In this document: positions 3,098-21,040 of the stretch, one piece after another
Position numbering within the stretch: position 1 is the first letter of the stretch
Layout: every line of letters starts with the position of its first letter
Notes under the pieces: model-generated
The model's input: only the letters and a program-made list of their open reading frames with translations
What the model was told of the DNA's origin: nothing
The model's database searches: none
Made by a program: the position numbers and the translations under genes
IMG/VR virus record: IMGVR_UViG_3300025057_000004
Span: 1-64,000 of that record
From: a virus
Direction: 5' to 3' (one strand)
DNA: 64,000 nt

Positions 3098-3831
3098 TAT
3101 TCAATTATTTTAGAATTTTCAATCATCTTAGACTGCAAACCAGGTCTATCGGTTGTTTGCATTGCAAGTTCAACAGCAAGATCTGCAATCTTTTCGTGAT
3201 GCATCTCATCAAACTCACAGAAAGTATTAGGATCTGTAAGATCAATGTTTCTTGGTGCTCTATAATAGGACACCCTATAATTATCAGGAGTTGCACCATC
3301 AAAAAGGATCACTTCGTGTCTTTTACTGTTGGTTGCACTTACCTGATTGGTTATATCATCTCTTTCTCTGTCAAACCTCCACACAAGTTCCTCGTAAGGA
3401 CGCTTGTATGGATTCTTGACGTTTGCATTATAGTAATCCTCTCTGATAGGTTTTACAGGTATTCTTGAATCTGAGATCGTATCACCACAACTGTTAGTAT
3501 AGCTGATATCAATCTCTTCTTTCAAAGTTACCCAAAAATCTTCAGGAAGATCTACAAAGTATGAGTTAGGATGATCTCCTACTGCAAAAGGTGGTGTAAG
3601 TGTAATTACATCGTGAGCTTTCAACTGCACAAGATCCTTTGAACGCTTTTCGCTCTCCTCTGCACCTTTACGTGTAGGATTGCCAAATTCGTTATACAAT
3701 GATTTAGCGAAAACCTTTTGAGCCTTATTGAAAAGCTTTACAAGGTCATCATCATCATAACCAGGAGCGTCCTGCGATGCATACGCATCATAACGCAATC
3801 TCATGTAGTCCAATATCTCAGTTACGGTCAT
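3097..3831 (-). CDS. Head-tail ring/connector protein (P22 gp4 / T7 tail tubular A type)
   Basis: 244 residues. The pattern fits the adaptor family that sits under the portal: N-terminal helices (TVTEILDYMRLRYDAY, DDLVKLFNKAQKVFA), a central beta part, then YRVSYYRAPRNIDL followed by a helix EFDEMHHEKIADLAVELAMQ, the usual C-terminal arrangement of tail-tubular proteins in podoviruses. Its 1-bp overlaps with the genes on both sides indicate coupled translation. It lies downstream of the portal and capsid genes, where crAss-like phages carry ring proteins. Confidence 0.7.
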   Translation of the reverse strand: MTVTEILDYMRLRYDAYASQDAPGYDDDDLVKLFNKAQKVFAKSLYNEFGNPTRKGAEESEKRSKDLVQLKAHDVITLTPPFAVGDHPNSYFVDLPEDFWVTLKEEIDISYTNSCGDTISDSRIPVKPIREDYYNANVKNPYKRPYEELVWRFDRERDDITNQVSATNSKRHEVILFDGATPDNYRVSYYRAPRNIDLTDPNTFCEFDEMHHEKIADLAVELAMQTTDRPGLQSKMIENSKIIE

Positions 3832-4733: not shown

Positions 4734-4764
4734 TGTTATTCCCTCTTCTAAACGTTAGCAATTA

Positions 4765-6273
4765 TCAATACAAGATATTAGGAATAAGTGACTTAGTACG
4801 ACTTGGGTCGTAAACAGCAACACCTACCTGACATCCTCTGTGTACGGTATAACCGTCAGTTGAATGTGACATCTGTGACATCTTACCTGTTGGAGAGTAA
4901 GGATCTCTCAATCCTGGCTCGTAACCGTAGATGTTATCACTGTTCTTCACATAGAACTTCTGAATGTTCGGCTCTCCGTTAGTAGTACCGATATCCATGA
5001 TATCGTAACGGTAAGACTCAGCAACACCACCATTCGGGTGAAGAATCTTGTTACGCTCTCTGTCATCGTACATAGAATCTACAGAGATAGAGAAACGGAT
5101 TCCGTTAGGTCCCATATAATCTAGGAACTGACCTCCGTAACCGTATGTCATAGATACACCTGCCATCCCTCCGTTCTCAGAAGTAGAGAACATACGAGTA
5201 GCATCAAACAATGGTCTGAACAACTGTGCATAATTTTCTAATGCAAGGTGGAACTGTACAGCTCCTCGCTCACCTGTTCTTGCTACAAAGTGTCGTTGGT
5301 CAGTAGGAAGTTTTCCTTCAGAAAGATCCATCAATGTAGATAGCAACCACTCGATAGAGAAATCACTGTAGAACTCAGTACCTGAAGACTCCATCTGCTG
5401 ACGGATACCTGCACCTTGCTTTTTAACGTGACCTGACTTACCGAAGTTGTAGTATTGACCGTTTGTTCCTCTGTTAGAACGTCCGAACATCATCAATCTG
5501 TTCTTTTCAAGACGATACTGCTGATCGAATACGTAATCCTCATACTGCATCCAAGTAACGAAGTTCTCAAGCTTTCCGCTTTTTGCATCCTTTACTTTGA
5601 ATCCTGTAGCAAATGGTCGGTTAACCATGTTTCCAGGAAGTGTATGCTGCATACGGATCATTGAGAAAGTGTTTCTCATTCCAAATGGAGACTCGAAGTT
5701 GATACCACCACCTTTCTTAGAAAGAGTAGATTCAACAAGAGACCACTCACGGCTCCATCTTTTACCTGCTGCAAGTTCTTCAACTGGTACGAAAAGATCA
5801 GGATCTCCAGTGATCAATTTCACTTCGTAGATCCAGTTAGTACCATCAGCTACAGGCTCAGACTGAATCTGTAGTGAATACAATTCATTCTTATGACCAA
5901 CAATGATATGCTCATCAGTGAACCATCTTTCTGGGAAAACCAAGTAGAAAGAAGTTACGTTCTTTCCTGGCTCATCACCTACTGCAACTGGTAACCCTGT
6001 TGGAGTCAATCGTGCTTCGATCAAAGGAACGTTTTTCTTACCGCTTCCGATAAGTTCCCAAGTGAAGTCATCATCAGTATCAAGATATTTTACCTTGTAC
6101 TTAGATAGTTGAGAATCCAAGTCTACACCAAAATTGGTAGTGTGGATTCTTCGCATGATATCAGTAGCCTTCTGTGGACGACCCTGATAGATGCTATGCA
6201 AGTGATTCGCAGTTGTCAATCCTGACCAGTGCTGCGCATCATACATTTGAAATTCTGAAAATTGAAGTGCCAT
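4765..6273 (-). CDS. Major capsid protein (HK97-fold type expected)
   Basis: 502 residues, the size usual for crAss-like major capsid proteins. It begins MALQFSEFQMYDAQHWSG, is acidic to neutral and free of obvious membrane segments, and has features typical of the family such as GMRNTFSMIRMQHTLPGN and SMTYGYGGQFLDYMGPNGIR. It follows portal and scaffold-like genes and precedes the head-tail connector genes, the standard order. Aromatic, regular coding with no breaks. The HK97 fold is family knowledge, not seen directly. The assignment is by position, length and general similarity. Confidence 0.85.
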   Translation of the reverse strand: MALQFSEFQMYDAQHWSGLTTANHLHSIYQGRPQKATDIMRRIHTTNFGVDLDSQLSKYKVKYLDTDDDFTWELIGSGKKNVPLIEARLTPTGLPVAVGDEPGKNVTSFYLVFPERWFTDEHIIVGHKNELYSLQIQSEPVADGTNWIYEVKLITGDPDLFVPVEELAAGKRWSREWSLVESTLSKKGGGINFESPFGMRNTFSMIRMQHTLPGNMVNRPFATGFKVKDAKSGKLENFVTWMQYEDYVFDQQYRLEKNRLMMFGRSNRGTNGQYYNFGKSGHVKKQGAGIRQQMESSGTEFYSDFSIEWLLSTLMDLSEGKLPTDQRHFVARTGERGAVQFHLALENYAQLFRPLFDATRMFSTSENGGMAGVSMTYGYGGQFLDYMGPNGIRFSISVDSMYDDRERNKILHPNGGVAESYRYDIMDIGTTNGEPNIQKFYVKNSDNIYGYEPGLRDPYSPTGKMSQMSHSTDGYTVHRGCQVGVAVYDPSRTKSLIPNILY

Positions 6274-14646: not shown

Positions 14647-14964
14647 TTATTCAAACCTTTCAGAACCCATACTTATATCACCTTTATCTTGATTCCCCAT
14701 ATAAATATCATAACACTTCTCGTGAAACTCCAGACTAAGTACAACCTCTACATCTACATCCTTATCCCCATGATAAGTATACCTACCTTCAAGCATAACT
14801 TCCATAAGTCCTTCTTTGGGAGTAAATACAAAAGAAGAATACGTAATTAGCACAAGTTCCTGCTCATCCTCAACTATAAGTTCTCTTGTAAACTTATATC
14901 TTGGATATTCAAACTCGTGCTCCATTCTATCTTCAATGCCTTCCTCTCCCATTTTTTTTTGCAT
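14647..14964 (-). CDS. Unknown protein, 105 aa (start uncertain)
   Basis: The frame is open from a TTG at 15066 (139 residues), but I choose the ATG at 14964 (105 residues, MQKKMGEEGIEDRMEHEFEY) because GAGGTG stands 9 nt upstream and because the 5' part (14988-15041) holds two inverted repeats more like a leader RNA. The product is acidic, with beta-type strands (LVLITYSSFVFTPKEGLMEV, then VDVEVVLSLEFHEKCYD). No family recognised. It is the first gene of the leftward block. Confidence 0.6.
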   Translation of the reverse strand: MQKKMGEEGIEDRMEHEFEYPRYKFTRELIVEDEQELVLITYSSFVFTPKEGLMEVMLEGRYTYHGDKDVDVEVVLSLEFHEKCYDIYMGNQDKGDISMGSERFE

Positions 14965-14987
14965 TTTGAAATTCACCTCGTAAAAAC

Positions 14988-15041
14988 ACTCGCTTTTGCG
15001 AGTCAAAAACTCAGACCTTATACCTACATCGAAGTTTTTGA
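14988..15041. repeat. Two inverted repeats in the leader of the leftward block
   Basis: ACTCGC-TTTT-GCGAGT (14988-15003) is a perfect 6-bp stem with a 4-nt loop. It abuts TCAAAAACT (15003-15011), which pairs with AGTTTTTGA (15033-15041). The two stems share base 15003, so they may be mutually exclusive. They lie between the distal promoter and the first ATG. Confidence 0.6.
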
Positions 15042-15107
15042 GTATATCAATATTTACCTGAACCAACAGGAGTGGTTACCTGAAGACACAACTAAGAGGT
15101 ATATAAC

Positions 15108-15168
15108 GTCCCATTTGATCAACCTTACGGGGTTGCGCAGTCTTAGATACTGCATTCTCAAACGAGAC
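15108..15168 (-). ncRNA. Candidate three-way-junction leader RNA
   Basis: The expected transcript from the promoter at 15173-15203 starts at about 15167. Its first 60 nt can form a closing helix GUCUC/GGGAC (15168-15164 with 15112-15108) around two hairpins: GCAGT-ATCTAAG-ACTGC (15153-15137) and CAACC-CCGTAA-GGTTG (15135-15120). An alternative TCTC/GAGA hairpin (15167-15156) competes with the closing helix, as in a switch. Ligand or function unknown; no known riboswitch class is recognised. Confidence 0.4.
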
Positions 15169-15172
15169 AATA

Positions 15173-15203
15173 CAAAACTAATACATCAAAGAGCGTTTGT
15201 CAA
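15173..15203 (-). promoter_or_regulatory. Distal host-type promoter, leftward
   Basis: Minus strand: TTGACA (15203-15198), 17 bp, TAGTTTTG (15180-15173), the same architecture as the promoter at 14575-14605. Upstream lies an A/T-tract region (T and A runs at 15211-15236) that could act as an UP-type element. Confidence 0.75.
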
Positions 15204-15334
15204 GTCTTTTCTAAAATTTTTTTTTAAAATTTTTTTGAGTAGCTGCGTGTGATGACCTCCATAACAAAAAGCCACTACTAAATTTTAGCAGCGGGAATAG
15301 TCCCGTTGCCGAACTTTTCACAATTATCAAAGCT

Positions 15335-15622
15335 ATGAGTAAAGAGCTAAAGTTTACAGATGAAGTCCTAACTGTCGCACAATTCAAAGCGAGTCAAGGC
15401 ACCGAGAGTATCGCGTTTGTTCGCAGCCCGAAAACCGACAAGTTGTTCGCGGCTGATGACGCAGGTAACACAATTGCAGCTGTTTCAGAGGCTGCAGTTG
15501 AAGCAGAAGAATTGCTCGTAACTCTCTGCGAAAGAGAGAACGCAGAGGGCAAGACTGAGCAGTTCTACCTGATTCACGCGAAAGGTAAGGGCGGTACGCA
15601 GAACGTTGAGAGAACCATCTAA
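15335..15622 (+). CDS. Small protein at the start of the rightward block
   Basis: 95 residues, first plus-strand gene after the divergent region. Starts MSKELKFTDEVLTVAQFKAS; beta/alpha mix, Ala- and Glu-rich in the middle, basic near the end (HAKGKGGTQNVERTI). Codon use is somewhat richer in G+C than its neighbours (many GCG, CGC, ACC). A CGGGA-ATAG-TCCCG hairpin (15292-15305) precedes the ATG. Function unknown; an early host-take-over role would fit the position only. Confidence 0.7.
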   Translation: MSKELKFTDEVLTVAQFKASQGTESIAFVRSPKTDKLFAADDAGNTIAAVSEAAVEAEELLVTLCERENAEGKTEQFYLIHAKGKGGTQNVERTI

Positions 15623-15977
15623 GGTTCCCTCAGCGGCTTCTGCCGTTTGAGCCAGTGCATCTATATGATGCAAACACACAGACCGAAAGGAGTTGTTACG
15701 GTAAATGTGTGTCAGTGTTAGAAGAGCAGCAACTCCAAGCTGCTTTTCTACCCTTTTGGGTATACAATAGTTTCCTACTATGTATCTAAATACATAGACT
15801 TTTAGCACCGTGTGAACAGGTGTATCGTTGTTCACAATATAACTATGCTTCCGACTATGAAGACATTTGTTATCGTCAACGGAGTAGTAACTCTTGTTGA
15901 GTACATCATTAACACTAACGCATAGTTAGTGTGATGTATTGAATCAGATTCGGAGTAAGTGAACACCAAATCACTTT

Positions 15978-15991
15978 CTTGGCAACAGAAA
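15978..15991 (+). repeat. CTTGGCAACAGAAA repeat, copy 1
   Basis: 14-bp exact repeat of 16652-16665. Each copy is preceded by TTCGGAG about 20-30 nt upstream, so the shared element is longer and split. Copy 1 lies within candidate RNA 1. Confidence 0.7.
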
Positions 15992-16220
15992 TCTTAGGTA
16001 TTTGGAGAGAACCTTAATCTCTCCTGTATTAATGCAACTGAACATAGTTCAACGGTCACAAGTCCGTGTAAATGCAGAGTGGTACAAAAAGGTTATGAGT
16101 GTTAGACCTGTCTAACTTCCGTAGGGTCGCTACCTAAAAAACTCTTATTTGGTCGTTGTCAATTTGCTGTTAGACTGGTCATCTTATACCAACAGTGTCG
16201 TCAACCGTGATAACGGTACA

Positions 16221-16250
16221 GCAAGGGTAAGCAGTCCTTGCACTTTTTAT
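16221..16250 (+). terminator. Terminator at the end of candidate RNA 1
   Basis: GCAAGG (16221-16226) pairs with CCTTGC (16236-16241) around a 9-nt loop, followed by ACTTTTTATT. The next gene starts 25 bp on, after an A/T-rich leader. Confidence 0.6.
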
Positions 16251-16274
16251 TAACCTTTTAATCTATAATCTACT

Positions 16275-16628
16275 ATGCAAATAGAAGAGTTATTGGATAT
16301 AAAGGCAGAGTTGACCAATTCATTGCGTGATATCAATACAAAGATAAAGCAATATGAAGACGGTTATATCTACATTGTAGTAACCAGAGAATATGGTTCA
16401 ATCTGGTTTGATTCTTTCAAGAACAAATATGCATTGGAAGATTACATTGCAGACTACTATGGAGATAACGGAATCACTGAAGTGTATACCGATTATGATG
16501 CTGATATTGAGCATTGTGATTCAAGGTTCTACACTTTAGAAGATTTCACTGAATACTTAAAGGATATGAAATATTATCCTAACAGTGTTCAGAAGATTCT
16601 GTCTGAATATCCACAATTGAACAGCTGA
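16275..16628 (+). CDS. Unknown acidic protein, 117 aa
   Basis: 117 residues; N-terminal coiled-coil-like helix (EELLDIKAELTNSLRDINTK), then a Tyr/Asp-rich part with aromatic strands (GYIYIVVTREYGSIWFDSFK). Lies alone between two candidate RNAs. Its leader contains AACCTTTTAATCTATAAT, resembling leaders of other genes here. No family recognised. Confidence 0.7.
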   Translation: MQIEELLDIKAELTNSLRDINTKIKQYEDGYIYIVVTREYGSIWFDSFKNKYALEDYIADYYGDNGITEVYTDYDADIEHCDSRFYTLEDFTEYLKDMKYYPNSVQKILSEYPQLNS

Positions 16629-16651
16629 AAAGCGGGTTCGGAGCAGTTATG

Positions 16652-16665
16652 CTTGGCAACAGAAA
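16652..16665 (+). repeat. CTTGGCAACAGAAA repeat, copy 2
   Basis: Exact copy of 15978-15991, 24 bp after the stop of the 117-residue gene and also preceded by TTCGGAG (16637). The two copies flank that gene. Confidence 0.7.
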
Positions 16666-16702
16666 ATAACATTTTAATTTCTAACCGACTAATACAATAG
16701 CT

Positions 16703-16792
16703 TTGAAACACAAAGACAAACAATCATACTTTGATCTGTTGGTGTTGTTTGCACCAGCAATATTCTTTTTCATTTATCAACTCATTAAATGA
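16703..16792 (+). CDS. Possible 29-aa single-span membrane peptide
   Basis: TTG start at 16703, TGA at 16790-16792. The product has a basic N-terminus (MKHKDKQSYFDLL) and one hydrophobic span (LLVLFAPAIFFFIYQLI). AATACAATA precedes it, like the leaders of neighbouring genes. The TTG start and small size make this tentative. Confidence 0.35.
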   Translation: MKHKDKQSYFDLLVLFAPAIFFFIYQLIK

Positions 16793-16829
16793 TGATACTT
16801 CTGTTCAATACTATTTTGGATGGTAAAAT

Positions 16830-17260
16830 ACTTTAGTCGGTCGCATTCCTTTTCGGAGGGTGTGACCTTCTTTAAATCCACCAAATCAGGGTGGCTTTAT
16901 TAACCCTCGCAGATATAAACAAGCCATCACTGCGATAATATAAATTAAAGAGCCAGGTCGCTGGGATAGAGAAGACCATATAAATAACTATCCATTTTTA
17001 ACACGTCATAAGGTCGGTAAAATTCCGAATACGTTCGTGCAGAGCCGTGGGGAGCGGAATGTAAAAACCCCAAACAAGTGTAAGCCAGAGTTATGTTTGC
17101 TCTCAGACAGGAGTCCATACATCTAGGTGCCCTGATGGACTTAGCAAGGAGAATTTGAGGGATAATGTAAAAATGGACAGGCAACGATCCGTTTATGTAA
17201 CTCTGGCAAACACTTACTTTACAATAATTCTCAAGTAATAATGTATGGTCAGGCCTGAAT
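16830..17260 (+). ncRNA. Gene-free structured stretch: candidate large structured RNA 2
   Basis: No credible gene. GGTCGCA/TGTGACC hairpin (16839-16867) and a terminator-like CCACC/GGTGG hairpin (16878-16894). A long-range helix joins AAGTGT-AA-GCCAGAGTTA (17076-17093) to TAACTCTGGC-AA-ACACTT (17198-17215): 16 bp with a symmetric AA/AA internal loop. Inside it AGTCCAT pairs with ATGGACT. ATTCCG/CGGAAT (about 17021-17060) holds GGGG in its loop, which can pair with the downstream CCCC to give a pseudoknot. ATGGTC/GACCAT (about 17243-17265) closes the region. Strand inferred from neighbours. Confidence 0.6.
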
Positions 17261-17348
17261 CGACCATTGCAATACAATGACTGTTTGGCGTGTCATTGGC
17301 ATTATCACTTGTCAATATATATTTTATAAACCCTTTAATTCATACATT

Positions 17349-17654
17349 ATGAATGCGCTTAAAGAAATAGAACCGTTTATTAATGAGATCCAAGCTATTA
17401 CTGTACAGCACTCTGATTTCAGTTGGGATGAAGATAATCTTAAGAGTTATACTCTTTATCCTGATTATACTCCTGAAGAATTTGAAGATTTCAAAGACTT
17501 TATGAACTTTGAATATGATAACGGTTACGGAGCACAGGAATTATACGGTACTATCTGGTTTAAAGACGGTACTTGGTGTACTCGCGGAGAGTATGACGGT
17601 AGTGAGTGGTGGGAACATCACGAAAGACCTGATATTATTACAAGGGAGCGTTGA
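17349..17654 (+). CDS. Unknown acidic protein, 101 aa
   Basis: The frame opens at 17277, but the ATG at 17349 (MNALKEIEPFINEIQ) is chosen because the leader motif AAACCCTTTAATT lies just before it and the extra N-terminus falls in structured RNA. The product is rich in Asp/Glu/Tyr/Trp (YTPEEFEDFKDFMNFEYDNG; GSEWWEHHERPD), which recalls DNA-mimic type early proteins; that is only a composition argument. A strong hairpin covers its stop codon. Confidence 0.65.
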   Translation: MNALKEIEPFINEIQAITVQHSDFSWDEDNLKSYTLYPDYTPEEFEDFKDFMNFEYDNGYGAQELYGTIWFKDGTWCTRGEYDGSEWWEHHERPDIITRER

Positions 17655-17665
17655 TCGCTCTCTTG
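17641..17665 (+). terminator. Terminator hairpin
   Basis: CAAGGGAGCG (17641-17650) pairs with CGCTCTCTTG (17656-17665), 10 bp with one wobble and a TTGAT loop, then TTTCT. It overlaps the stop codon of the preceding gene. Confidence 0.65.
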
Positions 17666-17728
17666 TTTCTACATAAGGTTAAGCAATAGACCTATCAACT
17701 TATTGCACAATTTATACAATACTATACA

Positions 17729-18055
17729 ATGAAATTTACTTACACATTTCCAACACGATTCTGGGACGCAGCAGCAAATTGTCTTAGTGAATCATTAAGA
17801 GCACTATCATTTAGAATAAGTCACAACACTGAAGGCAAAGTAAACCTTGATGCATCAGTGTTTACAATACTTAAAGATGATTTTCAAGGTGTTCAGGTCA
17901 ACTTAGCCTTTGTTGTTAAAGATTCATTGGCTCCTAAAGAGATCAAAGCTATTCTTGAAGAGATAATCTATCTTGAAAAGAATCTTGAAAAAGATGTTGA
18001 AAGGTCTGATAAAAAAGCAAATCAATTACACGAAAAATATTTTAAAGTAGCATAA
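17729..18055 (+). CDS. Unknown protein, 108 aa
   Basis: 108 residues, starting MKFTYTFPTRFWDAAANCL. Beta-type N-terminal two thirds and a long charged helix at the end (EEIIYLEKNLEKDVERSDKK). Follows an A/T-rich leader with ACAATACTATACA. The 67-residue membrane gene starts 2 bp after its stop, so these form one unit. No family recognised. Confidence 0.65.
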   Translation: MKFTYTFPTRFWDAAANCLSESLRALSFRISHNTEGKVNLDASVFTILKDDFQGVQVNLAFVVKDSLAPKEIKAILEEIIYLEKNLEKDVERSDKKANQLHEKYFKVA

Positions 18056-18056
18056 G

Positions 18057-18260
18057 ATGGAAACAATAGCTAAAAGATTCTTACTGTTCATCGGTATTAG
18101 TTCATCACCTATGTTAATAGTCACTGCGATGTGGCTATTAACTGTAGGTTACTTTAATTGGCTTGATGCAATACATTCAGAAGTATATGGTGTATTCACA
18201 TCATTCTGTGTGTTCTTTGCGTTCTTTGTGTCATTAGTTATACCTTCAAACGAGCTGTAA
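18057..18260 (+). CDS. Small membrane protein, two spans
   Basis: 67 residues with two hydrophobic segments: LLFIGISSSPMLIVTAMWLL and FTSFCVFFAFFVSLVIP, joined by a short loop. Placed between two small soluble genes in the early block. Could be an inner-membrane early protein; no evidence that it is a holin. Confidence 0.65.
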   Translation: METIAKRFLLFIGISSSPMLIVTAMWLLTVGYFNWLDAIHSEVYGVFTSFCVFFAFFVSLVIPSNEL

Positions 18261-18261
18261 T

Positions 18262-18501
18262 ATGATGGCAAGACCTAATTTCAACAGAGGAGATAATGAG
18301 AGCTACATCAGCTCTCTTATTTCCCAACATGGTTACAAAGACATAGGATGGTCAAACAGTGGTGCTGATTTCAGTAAACCACTTGACCCTATTATAGGTG
18401 CTGAAGAAATAGACTGTTCGTTGTACAGTTTCAGATGCACCAATATGGTATACGTCAATCATCTTACACGTGAGATACTTCACGTTGACATGAGTGATTA
18501 A
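18262..18501 (+). CDS. Unknown protein, 79 aa
   Basis: 79 residues, MMARPNFNRGDNESYISSLI; starts 2 bp after the membrane gene. Polar, with two Cys near the end. It is followed by a strong hairpin. No family recognised. Confidence 0.6.
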   Translation: MMARPNFNRGDNESYISSLISQHGYKDIGWSNSGADFSKPLDPIIGAEEIDCSLYSFRCTNMVYVNHLTREILHVDMSD

Positions 18502-18504
18502 TTG

Positions 18505-18530
18505 TAAGAGGGGTCAAATGACTTCTCTTA
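18505..18530 (+). terminator. Terminator hairpin before the first lipoprotein gene
   Basis: TAAGAGGGGTC (18505-18515) pairs with GACTTCTCTTA (18520-18530) around AAAT (two wobbles), followed by TTTC. The leader AAACCTTTTAATTACAATAA then leads into the next ATG. Confidence 0.65.
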
Positions 18531-18555
18531 TTTCAAACCTTTTAATTACAATAAA

Positions 18556-18963
18556 ATGAAATACTTAATTCTTAGTTTATTACTGCCATTGGTGTCTTGC
18601 TCAAAAGATACAGAACCAGGTTTATTCATCATTGATGTTTATGAGCAAGACAACATCAATACTATGTCATTTGTATTGGACATAGAAACAGAACCGTTTA
18701 CATACACAGAAGATTTCTTGCTTGAAGTTGTTGTGATAGCAAAGCCTATCATTGATGTATCTTCAGAAGAAGCATGGCTTGAGTCAGTAAGCAGACCTAC
18801 CTATTATAAAGCAATAGGTATCACTTGTCAGGATCTGATGATGTGTAACGGTAAACTTGTGCACGGGTTAGGTTATAGATTTGATGAGAACTTTGATTCA
18901 GATCTGTACTATATTACCTTTGATGTGTTGACAGAACAAGATTATATAGAGAGGGTCGATTGA
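18556..18963 (+). CDS. Lipoprotein, probably surface-exposed
   Basis: 135 residues. MKYLILSLLLPLVSCSKD is a classical lipoprotein signal with Cys15 as the lipidated residue. The residues after Cys (SKDTEPG) resemble the Bacteroidota surface-export signal (Lys plus acidic residues just after the lipidated Cys). The mature part is acidic and beta-type. Phage lipoproteins made early often block superinfection; that role is inference. A paralogue-like lipoprotein gene follows with a near-identical leader. Confidence 0.75.
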   Translation: MKYLILSLLLPLVSCSKDTEPGLFIIDVYEQDNINTMSFVLDIETEPFTYTEDFLLEVVVIAKPIIDVSSEEAWLESVSRPTYYKAIGITCQDLMMCNGKLVHGLGYRFDENFDSDLYYITFDVLTEQDYIERVD

Positions 18964-18971
18964 CCTTCTCT
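18948..18971 (+). terminator. Terminator hairpin between the lipoprotein genes
   Basis: AGAGAGGGTC (18948-18957) pairs with GACCTTCTCT (18962-18971) around GATT, then TATTTTAAAA. It spans the stop codon of the first lipoprotein gene. Confidence 0.65.
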
Positions 18972-18998
18972 TATTTTAAAATCTTTAATTACAATAAA

Positions 18999-19304
18999 AT
19001 GAAATACTTGATTATCATATTGACATCTGTCATAATATTGACAGGATGTTCAAAAACAATGGAATATGAAGATGTCGAATTTAAATTCGTATATGATGTT
19101 CCTCAAGATGACCGTGTGAATCCAGGTGATACGGTCATAATCAGCGTTACTACTTTATCAACTTCTTATGTTCCTCGCAGGAAAATAGTTGATATTTACA
19201 GAGGTCAAGCTTTACCTGAACCTGTAAAAGACAGTGTTGTTCATGAAGACGATTTTGTAACGCATATGTATACGTTTTATACACTTGGAAAAATATTAGA
19301 ATAG
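18999..19304 (+). CDS. Second lipoprotein
   Basis: 101 residues from the ATG at 18999; the frame is open from 18960, but the leader CTTTAATTACAATAAA and the signal peptide fix the start. MKYLIIILTSVIILTGCSK has a lipobox with Cys17. The mature part starts SKTMEYEDVEF and is beta-type (VNPGDTVIISVTTLSTS). The start MKYLI and the leader match the upstream lipoprotein gene, suggesting a duplicated expression cassette even though the mature parts differ. Confidence 0.75.
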   Translation: MKYLIIILTSVIILTGCSKTMEYEDVEFKFVYDVPQDDRVNPGDTVIISVTTLSTSYVPRRKIVDIYRGQALPEPVKDSVVHEDDFVTHMYTFYTLGKILE

Positions 19305-19860
19305 AGTAAAACAACAAGTTGTATAGATAGTAACAATCAGATGCTGCAGCATCCAACACACACAGGAGAGTGTGTACTATTATGAAAAGACAAAGAAAGA
19401 AAGCAATTTGTTGAATTAAAGGTCAAACCTACGACCTTGTGATTGAGAACGTTAGTACTTTGGAAAGCTCAGTACCAATCACTAAAAGAAGATAAACGAA
19501 ATAGGTGGATTAGTTTACCGAATAAGTTTATCCAGTGTACCCTTGAAATGCCATTTGAGAGGGATGAAACAAAGATGCATTAAGTTGCGGGATACGTATC
19601 ACTGAGGAGTTGGCAGCTAGACCATTGAAAGATGGTGCTAATCATAGACAGTTGTGGTATACACTCTTGACAACGATCAACTGTCTCAGACGCATGTAAA
19701 ATAGCGGTCATGCGTTGGTAACCCTCCGTGATGAGATAGACCCTCATCTCACTAAACAGTAAGAACCTGGAAAGTCAAGCTGGTTCTGAATTACATAGGT
19801 GTACAACTATGTAAGCGGTCATACAAGGCAGGCTATTGCCTGTATGATTTTTAATACACT
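19305..19860 (+). ncRNA. Gene-free, hairpin-dense stretch: candidate large structured RNA 3
   Basis: About 555 bp without a credible gene. Stems include GATGCTGCAGCATC (19340-19353), ACACAC/GTGTGT closed by ATAGTA/TACTAT (19327-19380), AAGGTC/GACCTT, TGATTG/CAATCA with GTACT/AGTAC inside, AGACAGTTG/CAACTGTCT (19646-19686), ACGCATG/CATGCGT, AGAACC/GGTTCT, TTACATAG/CTATGTAA (19791-19814). The motif AGCGGTCAT occurs twice (about 19703 and 19815). It ends in a terminator. Strand inferred from neighbours and terminator. Confidence 0.6.
19820..19855 (+). terminator. Terminator at the end of candidate RNA 3
   Basis: CATAC and AGGCA (19820-19830) pair with TGCCT and GTATG (19837-19846), with one bulged A, followed by ATTTTTAAT. 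Confidence 0.65.
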
Positions 19861-19929
19861 AAACCAAAACAAATAAGAGGAAGCTGAAAATCTTGAATAG
19901 AGTAGGCATACATCATCTTATAAAAAATT

Positions 19930-20205
19930 ATGAAAGATGAAAGTAACATTTTACAACACGTTCCAGTTACTACCGAATGTAGTATGGATACAAGAAACGA
20001 AGGAAGTAATTATTATGTTACCGTTCTATGGAACTTTCTGTTTAGAACGTTAACATTTGTAATGTCAATAGGGTTAACAGCACAGTTTTATTACAATCTT
20101 ATGTGTGATCAACCTGCCAGTAAAGCATTTGCATACATGATGATGTTTGTATGTGCGGTGATTTTACTATCAGATCTTCTTGTCTATGATGAAGAAACTG
20201 ATTAG
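19930..20205 (+). CDS. Small membrane protein, two spans
   Basis: 91 residues: a soluble N-terminus of about 30 residues, then two hydrophobic segments (VLWNFLFRTLTFVMSIGL and KAFAYMMMFVCAVILLSDLL) and an acidic tail (VYDEETD). Its end overlaps the start of the radical SAM gene by 20 bp. Function unknown. Confidence 0.65.
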   Translation: MKDESNILQHVPVTTECSMDTRNEGSNYYVTVLWNFLFRTLTFVMSIGLTAQFYYNLMCDQPASKAFAYMMMFVCAVILLSDLLVYDEETD

Positions 20206-21040
20206 AAAGAGTATGAAGATACGTCCATCTGGAAGAAGCAGTGATTTCATATCACCTTCTTTCGGGTACGGATGTCTCCTCAACTGTAGCTACTGCTATA
20301 TGAAACGTCACAAGCCTGAAGGACTTGATGTTGCAACCAATACGAATGACATACTTACAGAGATCAACAATCATGCATTCTTTGCAACGGTAGATAAGCC
20401 GAATCAAACAGATCCTGAGTATGTAACATACGATATTGCTTGCAATGAAGACTTTGCATTACATGCCAAGCATCACGAGTGGGAGAAGATATTCACATTC
20501 TTCAGAGACCACCCTGTAGCAAAGGCAACACTTGCAACTAAGATAGTTCCTGATAGATTTCTTACTTTTGACCCTAAAGGTAAGGTACGTATACGATTCA
20601 GTCTTATGCCGCAGAAGATAAGTTCAATACTTGAACCTGAAACTGCAAGCATAGAAGATAGATTACGTGCTGTAGATAGATTCATAGCTGCAGGTTATGA
20701 TATACATTTGAACTTCTCACCTGTATTATACTATGATGGTTGGGAGGATGATTATGTAGAACTATTTCATCTTGTAGATGAGCTTGTTGACAACAAAGAG
20801 TGTGTAAAAGCGGAGGTTATCTTCCTCACACACAACGAGAACAAGCATATATACAATATGAATCACGGTCTACCAGGAGAAGACCTTCTATGGACACCTG
20901 ATGTTCAGGAAGCAAAGACCTCTGAATACGGAGGTAAGAACATACGATACAAAGCAGATCTAAAATCTGATATGATTGCTGTGTTTAAAGATTTACACGG
21001 ATGTATTATACCGTGGAATCAGATACGTTACATCTTTTAA
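20186..21040 (+). CDS. Spore-photoproduct-lyase-like radical SAM protein
   Basis: 284 residues from the ATG at 20186 (the frame is open from a TTG at 20180). FGYGCLLNCSYCYMKRH holds the CX3CX2C iron-sulfur motif (Cys30, Cys34, Cys37), the spacing of radical SAM enzymes, and the following RHKPEG and the HLNFSPVLYYDGWEDDY part resemble SplB. SplB repairs UV-made thymine dimers (spore photoproduct) in DNA. A repair or DNA-modifying radical function is likely; the exact substrate is not known. Placed just ahead of the replication genes, next to a membrane protein. Confidence 0.8.
   Translation: MMKKLIRKSMKIRPSGRSSDFISPSFGYGCLLNCSYCYMKRHKPEGLDVATNTNDILTEINNHAFFATVDKPNQTDPEYVTYDIACNEDFALHAKHHEWEKIFTFFRDHPVAKATLATKIVPDRFLTFDPKGKVRIRFSLMPQKISSILEPETASIEDRLRAVDRFIAAGYDIHLNFSPVLYYDGWEDDYVELFHLVDELVDNKECVKAEVIFLTHNENKHIYNMNHGLPGEDLLWTPDVQEAKTSEYGGKNIRYKADLKSDMIAVFKDLHGCIIPWNQIRYIF

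Follow-up and report, generated by a model that had tools for sequence, protein, structure and literature searches.

Conserved micro-gene and exchangeable RNA modules in the early arm of a putative crAss-like phage

Gene-free stretches in the early arm

crAss-like phages abound in the gut, and their early genes are for the most part unexplained. The DNA considered here is the first 64 kb (the window) of the 88,919-base virus record IMGVR_UViG_3300025057_000004, in which the major head protein, portal and terminase are matched by PHROGs profiles; giant minus-strand open reading frames (ORFs) and two opposed arms agree with a crAss-like phage. The rightward (early) arm starts immediately right of the divergent junction, and its first few kilobases raise the question of whether three stretches without evident genes encode three large RNAs, as an original prediction had it. 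On the plus strand between 15.3 and 42.8 kb, gene gaps longer than 150 nucleotides (nt) are found only at 15623-16274 (stretch 1), 16629-17276 (stretch 2, which extends to 17348 should translation really begin at the ATG at 17349) and 19305-19929 (stretch 3); together they make up ~45% of 15.6-19.9 kb, which bears out the proposal that more than a third of this region is free of genes. Related phages with the same arm layout also keep gene-free stretches (L138, L143, L145, L207/L230 and L238-L246; L numbers denote viral contigs), so that the prediction withstands its own refutation criterion, relatives lacking such stretches despite the same gene order.

The density of hairpins had been thought distinctive of the three stretches. 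Their predicted folding is better than that of shuffled sequence, with z-scores of -5.0, -2.7 (unremarkable) and -4.7 for stretches 1, 2 and 3; however, 14 fragments taken from coding sequence of this phage score alike (z from +0.5 to -7.2, mean near -2.9), and fold z-scores were dropped as proof of RNA. Hairpin density does not discriminate because coding pieces of the phage fold equally well; the case for RNA therefore rests on comparison with relatives. Coding sequence at 22-42 kb of the window likewise folds to energies far below those of shuffled sequence (z as low as -7.2), which makes global RNA structure a property of the genome.

The same region was collected from other contigs through relatives of the terminase; against INPHARED phages it gave no match by megablast or distant blastn. 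DNA similarity to the relatives is patchy and strongest in the 'gene-free' parts, and the adjoining ORFs often differ. Positions 15671-16087 are similar in L133, L135, L137 and L138, 16823-16879 in L141, L143 and L149-L151, and 19303-19415 in L141 and L143; a more distant phage (L207/L230) carries the 5' domain of the stretch 2 candidate (RNA2) and three domains of the stretch 3 candidate (RNA3), 88-98% identical. In a search for paralogy among RNA1, RNA2 and RNA3, the sole shared item is a pseudoknot 14-mer, present in RNA1 and in the stretch behind a 117-amino-acid (aa) gene.

The explanation that we somewhat favor places a conserved micro-gene, with a message predicted to be self-cutting and pseudoknot-ended, inside an island of shuffled RNA modules, and adds two candidate noncoding RNAs, one good and the other partial. 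Small, mostly single-gene early transcription units would end in RNA structures, and beside them would stand one or more genuine structured noncoding RNAs. As for three large RNAs, the proposal fares best in stretch 3 and is supported in stretch 2 for the 5' domain only; it does not hold for stretch 1.

The micro-gene and its upstream RNA

Stretch 1 is not a single giant RNA; most of it is accounted for by the message of a conserved 22-aa micro-gene, which carries RNA elements. The micro-ORF (15857-15925, plus strand) encodes MKTFVIVNGVVTLVEYIINTNA followed by a stop codon, and was recognized by third-position bias and profile search; an upstream in-frame ATG at 15845 would make it 26 aa. Substitutions at codon positions 1/2/3 number 0/0/6 against L133, 2/0/6 against L143 and 6/4/14 against L145, and this concentration at the third position indicates that the micro-ORF is under coding selection. 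The profile search returned 16 viral loci, one of which is this phage; L129 and L145 are additional, for a total of 17 other contigs. In phages with a radical SAM protein of the spore-photoproduct-lyase (SPL) type the peptide reads METYIIVDGVVTILEWVVNTNA, and no long ORF is present in the several hundred bases that follow; an RNA element, module M2 (ACTCTCATCCAA ... CCTTGTGAGAGTA), is seen behind the micro-ORF in three of these phages (L007, L017 and L245).

Module A (15671-15804, plus strand) is a pseudoknotted RNA upstream of the micro-ORF, identified from relatives through two-sided compensatory changes; it is found in L133 and L138 and more weakly in L155. Helix P1 pairs 15675-15680 with 15706-15711 and is accompanied by an inner stem ACCG:CGGU; the loop GGAGUUG (15689-15695) forms the pseudoknot with CAACUCC (15730-15736). 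The variants of P1 stay paired (CACACA:UGUGUG, CAUAUA:UGUAUG and CACGUC:GAUGUG), and pairing is also retained where the loop interaction GGAGUU:AACUCC becomes AGAGUU:AACUCU.

A PK2-type pseudoknot behind stop codons

The micro-ORF stop is followed by a PK2-type pseudoknot (copy 1, 15940-15998, plus strand; motif and stem analysis), which holds the equivalent place in L129, L133, L135, L137 and L138; copy 2 (16629-16671, plus strand; stem GTTAT:ATAAC) follows the 117-aa ORF, at a distance of 8 nt from its stop codon. The split motif TTCGGAG ... CTTGGCAACAGAAA, which the original prediction had noticed at both places, is present at 15949-15991 and 16637-16665 as well as in 38 other viral contig stretches. 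Across 39 instances the stem takes 26 distinct pairings, scoring 6.1 with their own partners and a mean of 2.85 (maximum 3.58) with shuffled partners (500 shuffles); since the 26 variants stay paired and shuffling halves the pairing, the pseudoknot is an RNA element.

The motif is identical to the 3' end of the alpha_tmRNA consensus, which is PK2 of the coding piece of a transfer-messenger RNA (tmRNA), and in many of the 38 contig stretches it directly follows the tag of a permuted tmRNA, in which both PK1 and PK2 belong to the coding piece (PMC3985003). The window pseudoknot resembles PK2 of permuted two-piece tmRNA (alpha_tmRNA, RF01849; tmRNA_permuted, RF04321) in its letters, stem position and place after a stop; however, it has neither a tRNA-like domain nor a tag ending in LAA, and phage copies also trail ordinary small ORFs. 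Of the instances outside tmRNA, 19/23 lie no more than 30 nt behind a stop codon (counting ATG-initiated ORFs of at least 20 aa), compared with 11.6% of random positions; the p-value of about 1e-14 is optimistic as the contigs are partly related. Besides its place in tmRNA, the pseudoknot is employed behind ordinary small ORFs; the literature searched gave no description of such use after ordinary stop codons across many phages. Among 84,980 bacterial and archaeal species genomes, the TGAATNAGA form outside tmRNA was seen in two contigs of metagenome-assembled genomes only, and it is thus essentially phage-borne. Weak matches to microRNA, small nucleolar RNA and alpha_tmRNA models in the Rfam scan were judged to be chance; the alpha_tmRNA match still led to the shared 3' element.

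A twister-like ribozyme and message 3' ends

Downstream of copy 1, positions 16026-16085 (plus strand) probably form a twister-like ribozyme of the P1 type, its membership unconfirmed: the match to Rfam RF03160 is full length and scores 56.7 bits (E 3.8e-11) against a gathering score, the curators' cut-off, of 67.2. No pair of the model is broken in the alignment, and helices P1, P2 and P4 as well as the core letters UAA, CACAAG, GUAAA and GAG are intact. Both tertiary pairings are held by compensation relative to the consensus (T1 from CCC:GGG to CAC:GTG, T2 from GC:GC to AC:GT), with the letters of T1 and T2 presumed to correspond to those in known twister structures. Self-cleavage is predicted at 16030/16031. 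In these respects the sequence is like type-P1 twisters; its position downstream of a micro-ORF and a pseudoknot differs, and no such context was found in the literature searched.

A twister-P1-like sequence is also found behind the micro-ORF in L137 and L138, neither of which has a terminator-like site from the micro-ORF to the next gene. The same place is taken in L145 by a hatchet ribozyme (55.4 bits, above threshold), and in L129 by the 5' half of a twister fused to a terminator-like hairpin. From the swap of twister for hatchet, the fusion in L129 and the missing terminators in L137 and L138, we infer that the micro-ORF message owes its 3' end to the ribozyme and is protected by the pseudoknot. 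The stretch 1 transcript would then run from module A through the micro-ORF and the PK2-type pseudoknot to the twister-type ribozyme, with the predicted cut falling immediately 3' of the pseudoknot and of a short hairpin; the cut message would end in a compact structure that may resist 3'-5' decay, and the downstream RNA would be released. Theta ribozymes of gut phages are likewise phage self-cleaving RNAs proposed for transcript processing (PMC10879173); they are a different class and mostly tied to tRNAs, whereas the window ribozyme is tied to a micro-ORF message, and ARAGORN finds no tRNA in the window.

Two further arrangements were seen among the contigs. In L085 (minus strand), a twister-P1-like sequence and a RAGATH-1 hammerhead (1158-1234) lie upstream of a small ORF, which is followed by a PK2-type pseudoknot. 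Module M3 (TTCCCAAGGGTGAGCAGTTGTAATA ... TATTACAACTGAGTGCAGAGGG) is present in L006, L007, L017, L022, L026, L035, L040 and L061, with halves in L135 and L143; it has a twister-like signature and no Rfam match, the twister-P5 model gave no support, and it is possibly a twister variant.

Structured RNA candidates in stretches 3 and 2

RNA3 (19303-19850, plus strand) is the best supported of the three stretches and, judged by sequence comparison, a good candidate for a modular structured RNA, with domains a, b and c and a terminator. Domain a (19303-19415, 113 nt) has an 11-base-pair closing helix CAACAAGUUGU and an invariant 14-nt palindrome GATGCTGCAGCATC, and is 91% identical in L141/L143 and L207. 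Domain b (19415-19543) is found in L207 and in part in L138, in both of which its helix is retained through replaced sequence; domain c (19542-19641) recurs in L207, and the terminator (19826-19850) was located by terminator scan. These modules are shared at 91-98% with phages whose neighboring proteins differ.

In stretch 2 support for an RNA is partial, extending to the 5' domain (16900-17002) of RNA2 (16900-17325, plus strand), which is 88% identical in L207/L230 and covaries there in one compensatory loop pairing (GGUC:GACC to GGUU:AACC). Ahead of it lies element II (16823-16879, plus strand), a hairpin GGTCGCAYTCC-TYTTCGGAGGGTGTGACC followed by TTTAAATCC; it is 89-96% identical in L141, L143 and L149-L151, where it stands behind ORF stops. 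Two possible tiny ORFs (16703-16792 and 16792-16836) are also present in stretch 2. Stretch 3, and in stretch 2 the 5' domain at a minimum, would be structured RNAs built of exchangeable domains, which could possibly act as scaffolds.

Alternative explanations

Several observations weigh against the micro-gene island with its self-cutting message. The score of the putative ribozyme falls below the gathering score; the comparison of ribozyme and terminator in L129 is a single case; in the radical SAM phages other modules follow the micro-ORF, with no recognized ribozyme among them; and no relative was detected for RNA2 beyond its 5' domain. Furthermore, stretch 1 ends in an intrinsic-terminator-like hairpin with a U tract (16221-16250, plus strand; terminator scan), which also closes the window unit downstream of the ribozyme; the ribozyme is therefore not the sole end-former there.

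Among the rivals, the one that survives best draws on GOLLD and ROOL, phage RNAs that form nanocages and are sited near tRNAs; GOLLD occurs near tRNA islands in phages and its linker sometimes contains tRNAs (PMC12286853). All three stretches would be single large ornate RNAs of this kind, making RNA-only particles, and the micro-ORF and ribozyme would be internal parts or coincidences. Their length (450-630 nt) and early position agree with this, as does the early island of L145, where a GOLLD match of 62.9 bits (E 6e-14, under the cut-off of 150) and the hatchet ribozyme lie on the minus strand at 3257-3662 and 4759-4961. The relatives of RNA3 add tRNA-like elements in or behind its modules (L143, 4235-4377, minus strand; L207, ~1792-1905), which have D and T arms and a long insert replacing the normal anticodon arm. 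We nevertheless consider this explanation unlikely: the GOLLD model (conserved 3' region) has no match in this genome; positions 15000-20300 searched against all 4227 Rfam families up to E 5 gave no ROOL or other large-RNA match, and none that fits RNA3; stretch 1 holds an ORF under coding selection; and the domains are shuffled, not kept as a unit. RNA3 was accordingly rejected as a member of GOLLD or ROOL. It is like them in being a large, modular structured phage RNA with tRNA-like elements nearby in its relatives, and unlike them in matching neither family model; 'large structured phage RNA' is a reasonable description, and RNA-only particles are only suggested, indirectly, by the sub-threshold match in L145.

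It is very improbable that stretch 1 encodes a phage tmRNA, whether degenerate or novel, with the 22-aa ORF as its tag and the pseudoknot as its PK2. The micro-ORF has the size of a tag, and in permuted tmRNAs the tag is followed by this very pseudoknot; however, this reading was rejected as no tRNA-like domain was found by ARAGORN and Rfam gave no tmRNA match at gathering score. The start codon of the micro-ORF is conserved, the peptide ends in NTNA and not LAA, and the same pseudoknot stands behind the 117-aa and other full ORFs.

Phage N4 uses DNA hairpins as promoters for its virion RNA polymerase. A virion RNA polymerase also transcribes the early genes of crAss-like phages in a programme resembling that of N4 (PMC10136315); the region has 9 terminator-like sites where 2.4 are expected by chance, and promoter-like ACCTTTTAAT lies upstream of several early-gene starts. 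That the hairpins are mainly such DNA promoters with terminators between them is the least probable account, since the conserved elements are mostly behind stops and have G-U pairs, pseudoknots and ribozyme consensus that make sense only in RNA, although a few hairpins such as element II could be of this type.

The micro-gene island remains the preferred explanation, and a bolder extension of it is held tentatively, with clearly less confidence. The post-stop PK2-type pseudoknot and a replaceable cutter (twister or hatchet) or terminator would be a portable 3'-end kit for small phage early messages, and RNA3 would found a new class of large modular RNA at a place where a relative has a GOLLD match. 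Why certain genes of bacteria and phages have self-cleaving ribozymes clustered near them has been described as still unknown (PMC10085705); such a kit, if true, would give those of phages a concrete job and a part of tmRNA a second life. With two ribozyme classes behind one micro-ORF, and a broken ribozyme joined to a terminator, the proposal that ribozymes form message 3' ends is directly testable. The roles in host take-over or packaging first proposed for the stretches are unsupported by this analysis.

Neighboring features

The DUF805b RNA motif (19874-19908, plus strand; Rfam RF02914) lies between RNA3 and a 91-aa ORF; the match is full length and its 47.4 bits exceed the gathering score (35.6), and the ORF that it precedes here has no Pfam match. 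Promoter-like sequences (ACCTTTTAAT / ACCCTTTAAT) are found just upstream of early-gene start codons at 16253, 17330 and 18537 of the window. Positions 18507-18570 and 18948-19013 are a repeat (86% identical) that combines a promoter-like sequence and a terminator-like hairpin with the beginning of a lipoprotein-like ORF; it is a duplicated small transcription unit.

At the arm junction, 14938-15205 is ~72-85% conserved in L141, L143, L144, L145, L149-L151 and L157, with flanks that are less alike; it could be a leader RNA or a promoter serving the late (minus) arm. On the other side of the region, 20180-21040 encodes a radical SAM protein of the spore-photoproduct-lyase type (Pfam SPL, E 2e-25), which has 571 relatives in viral contigs; some of the phages that carry it have the micro-ORF too.

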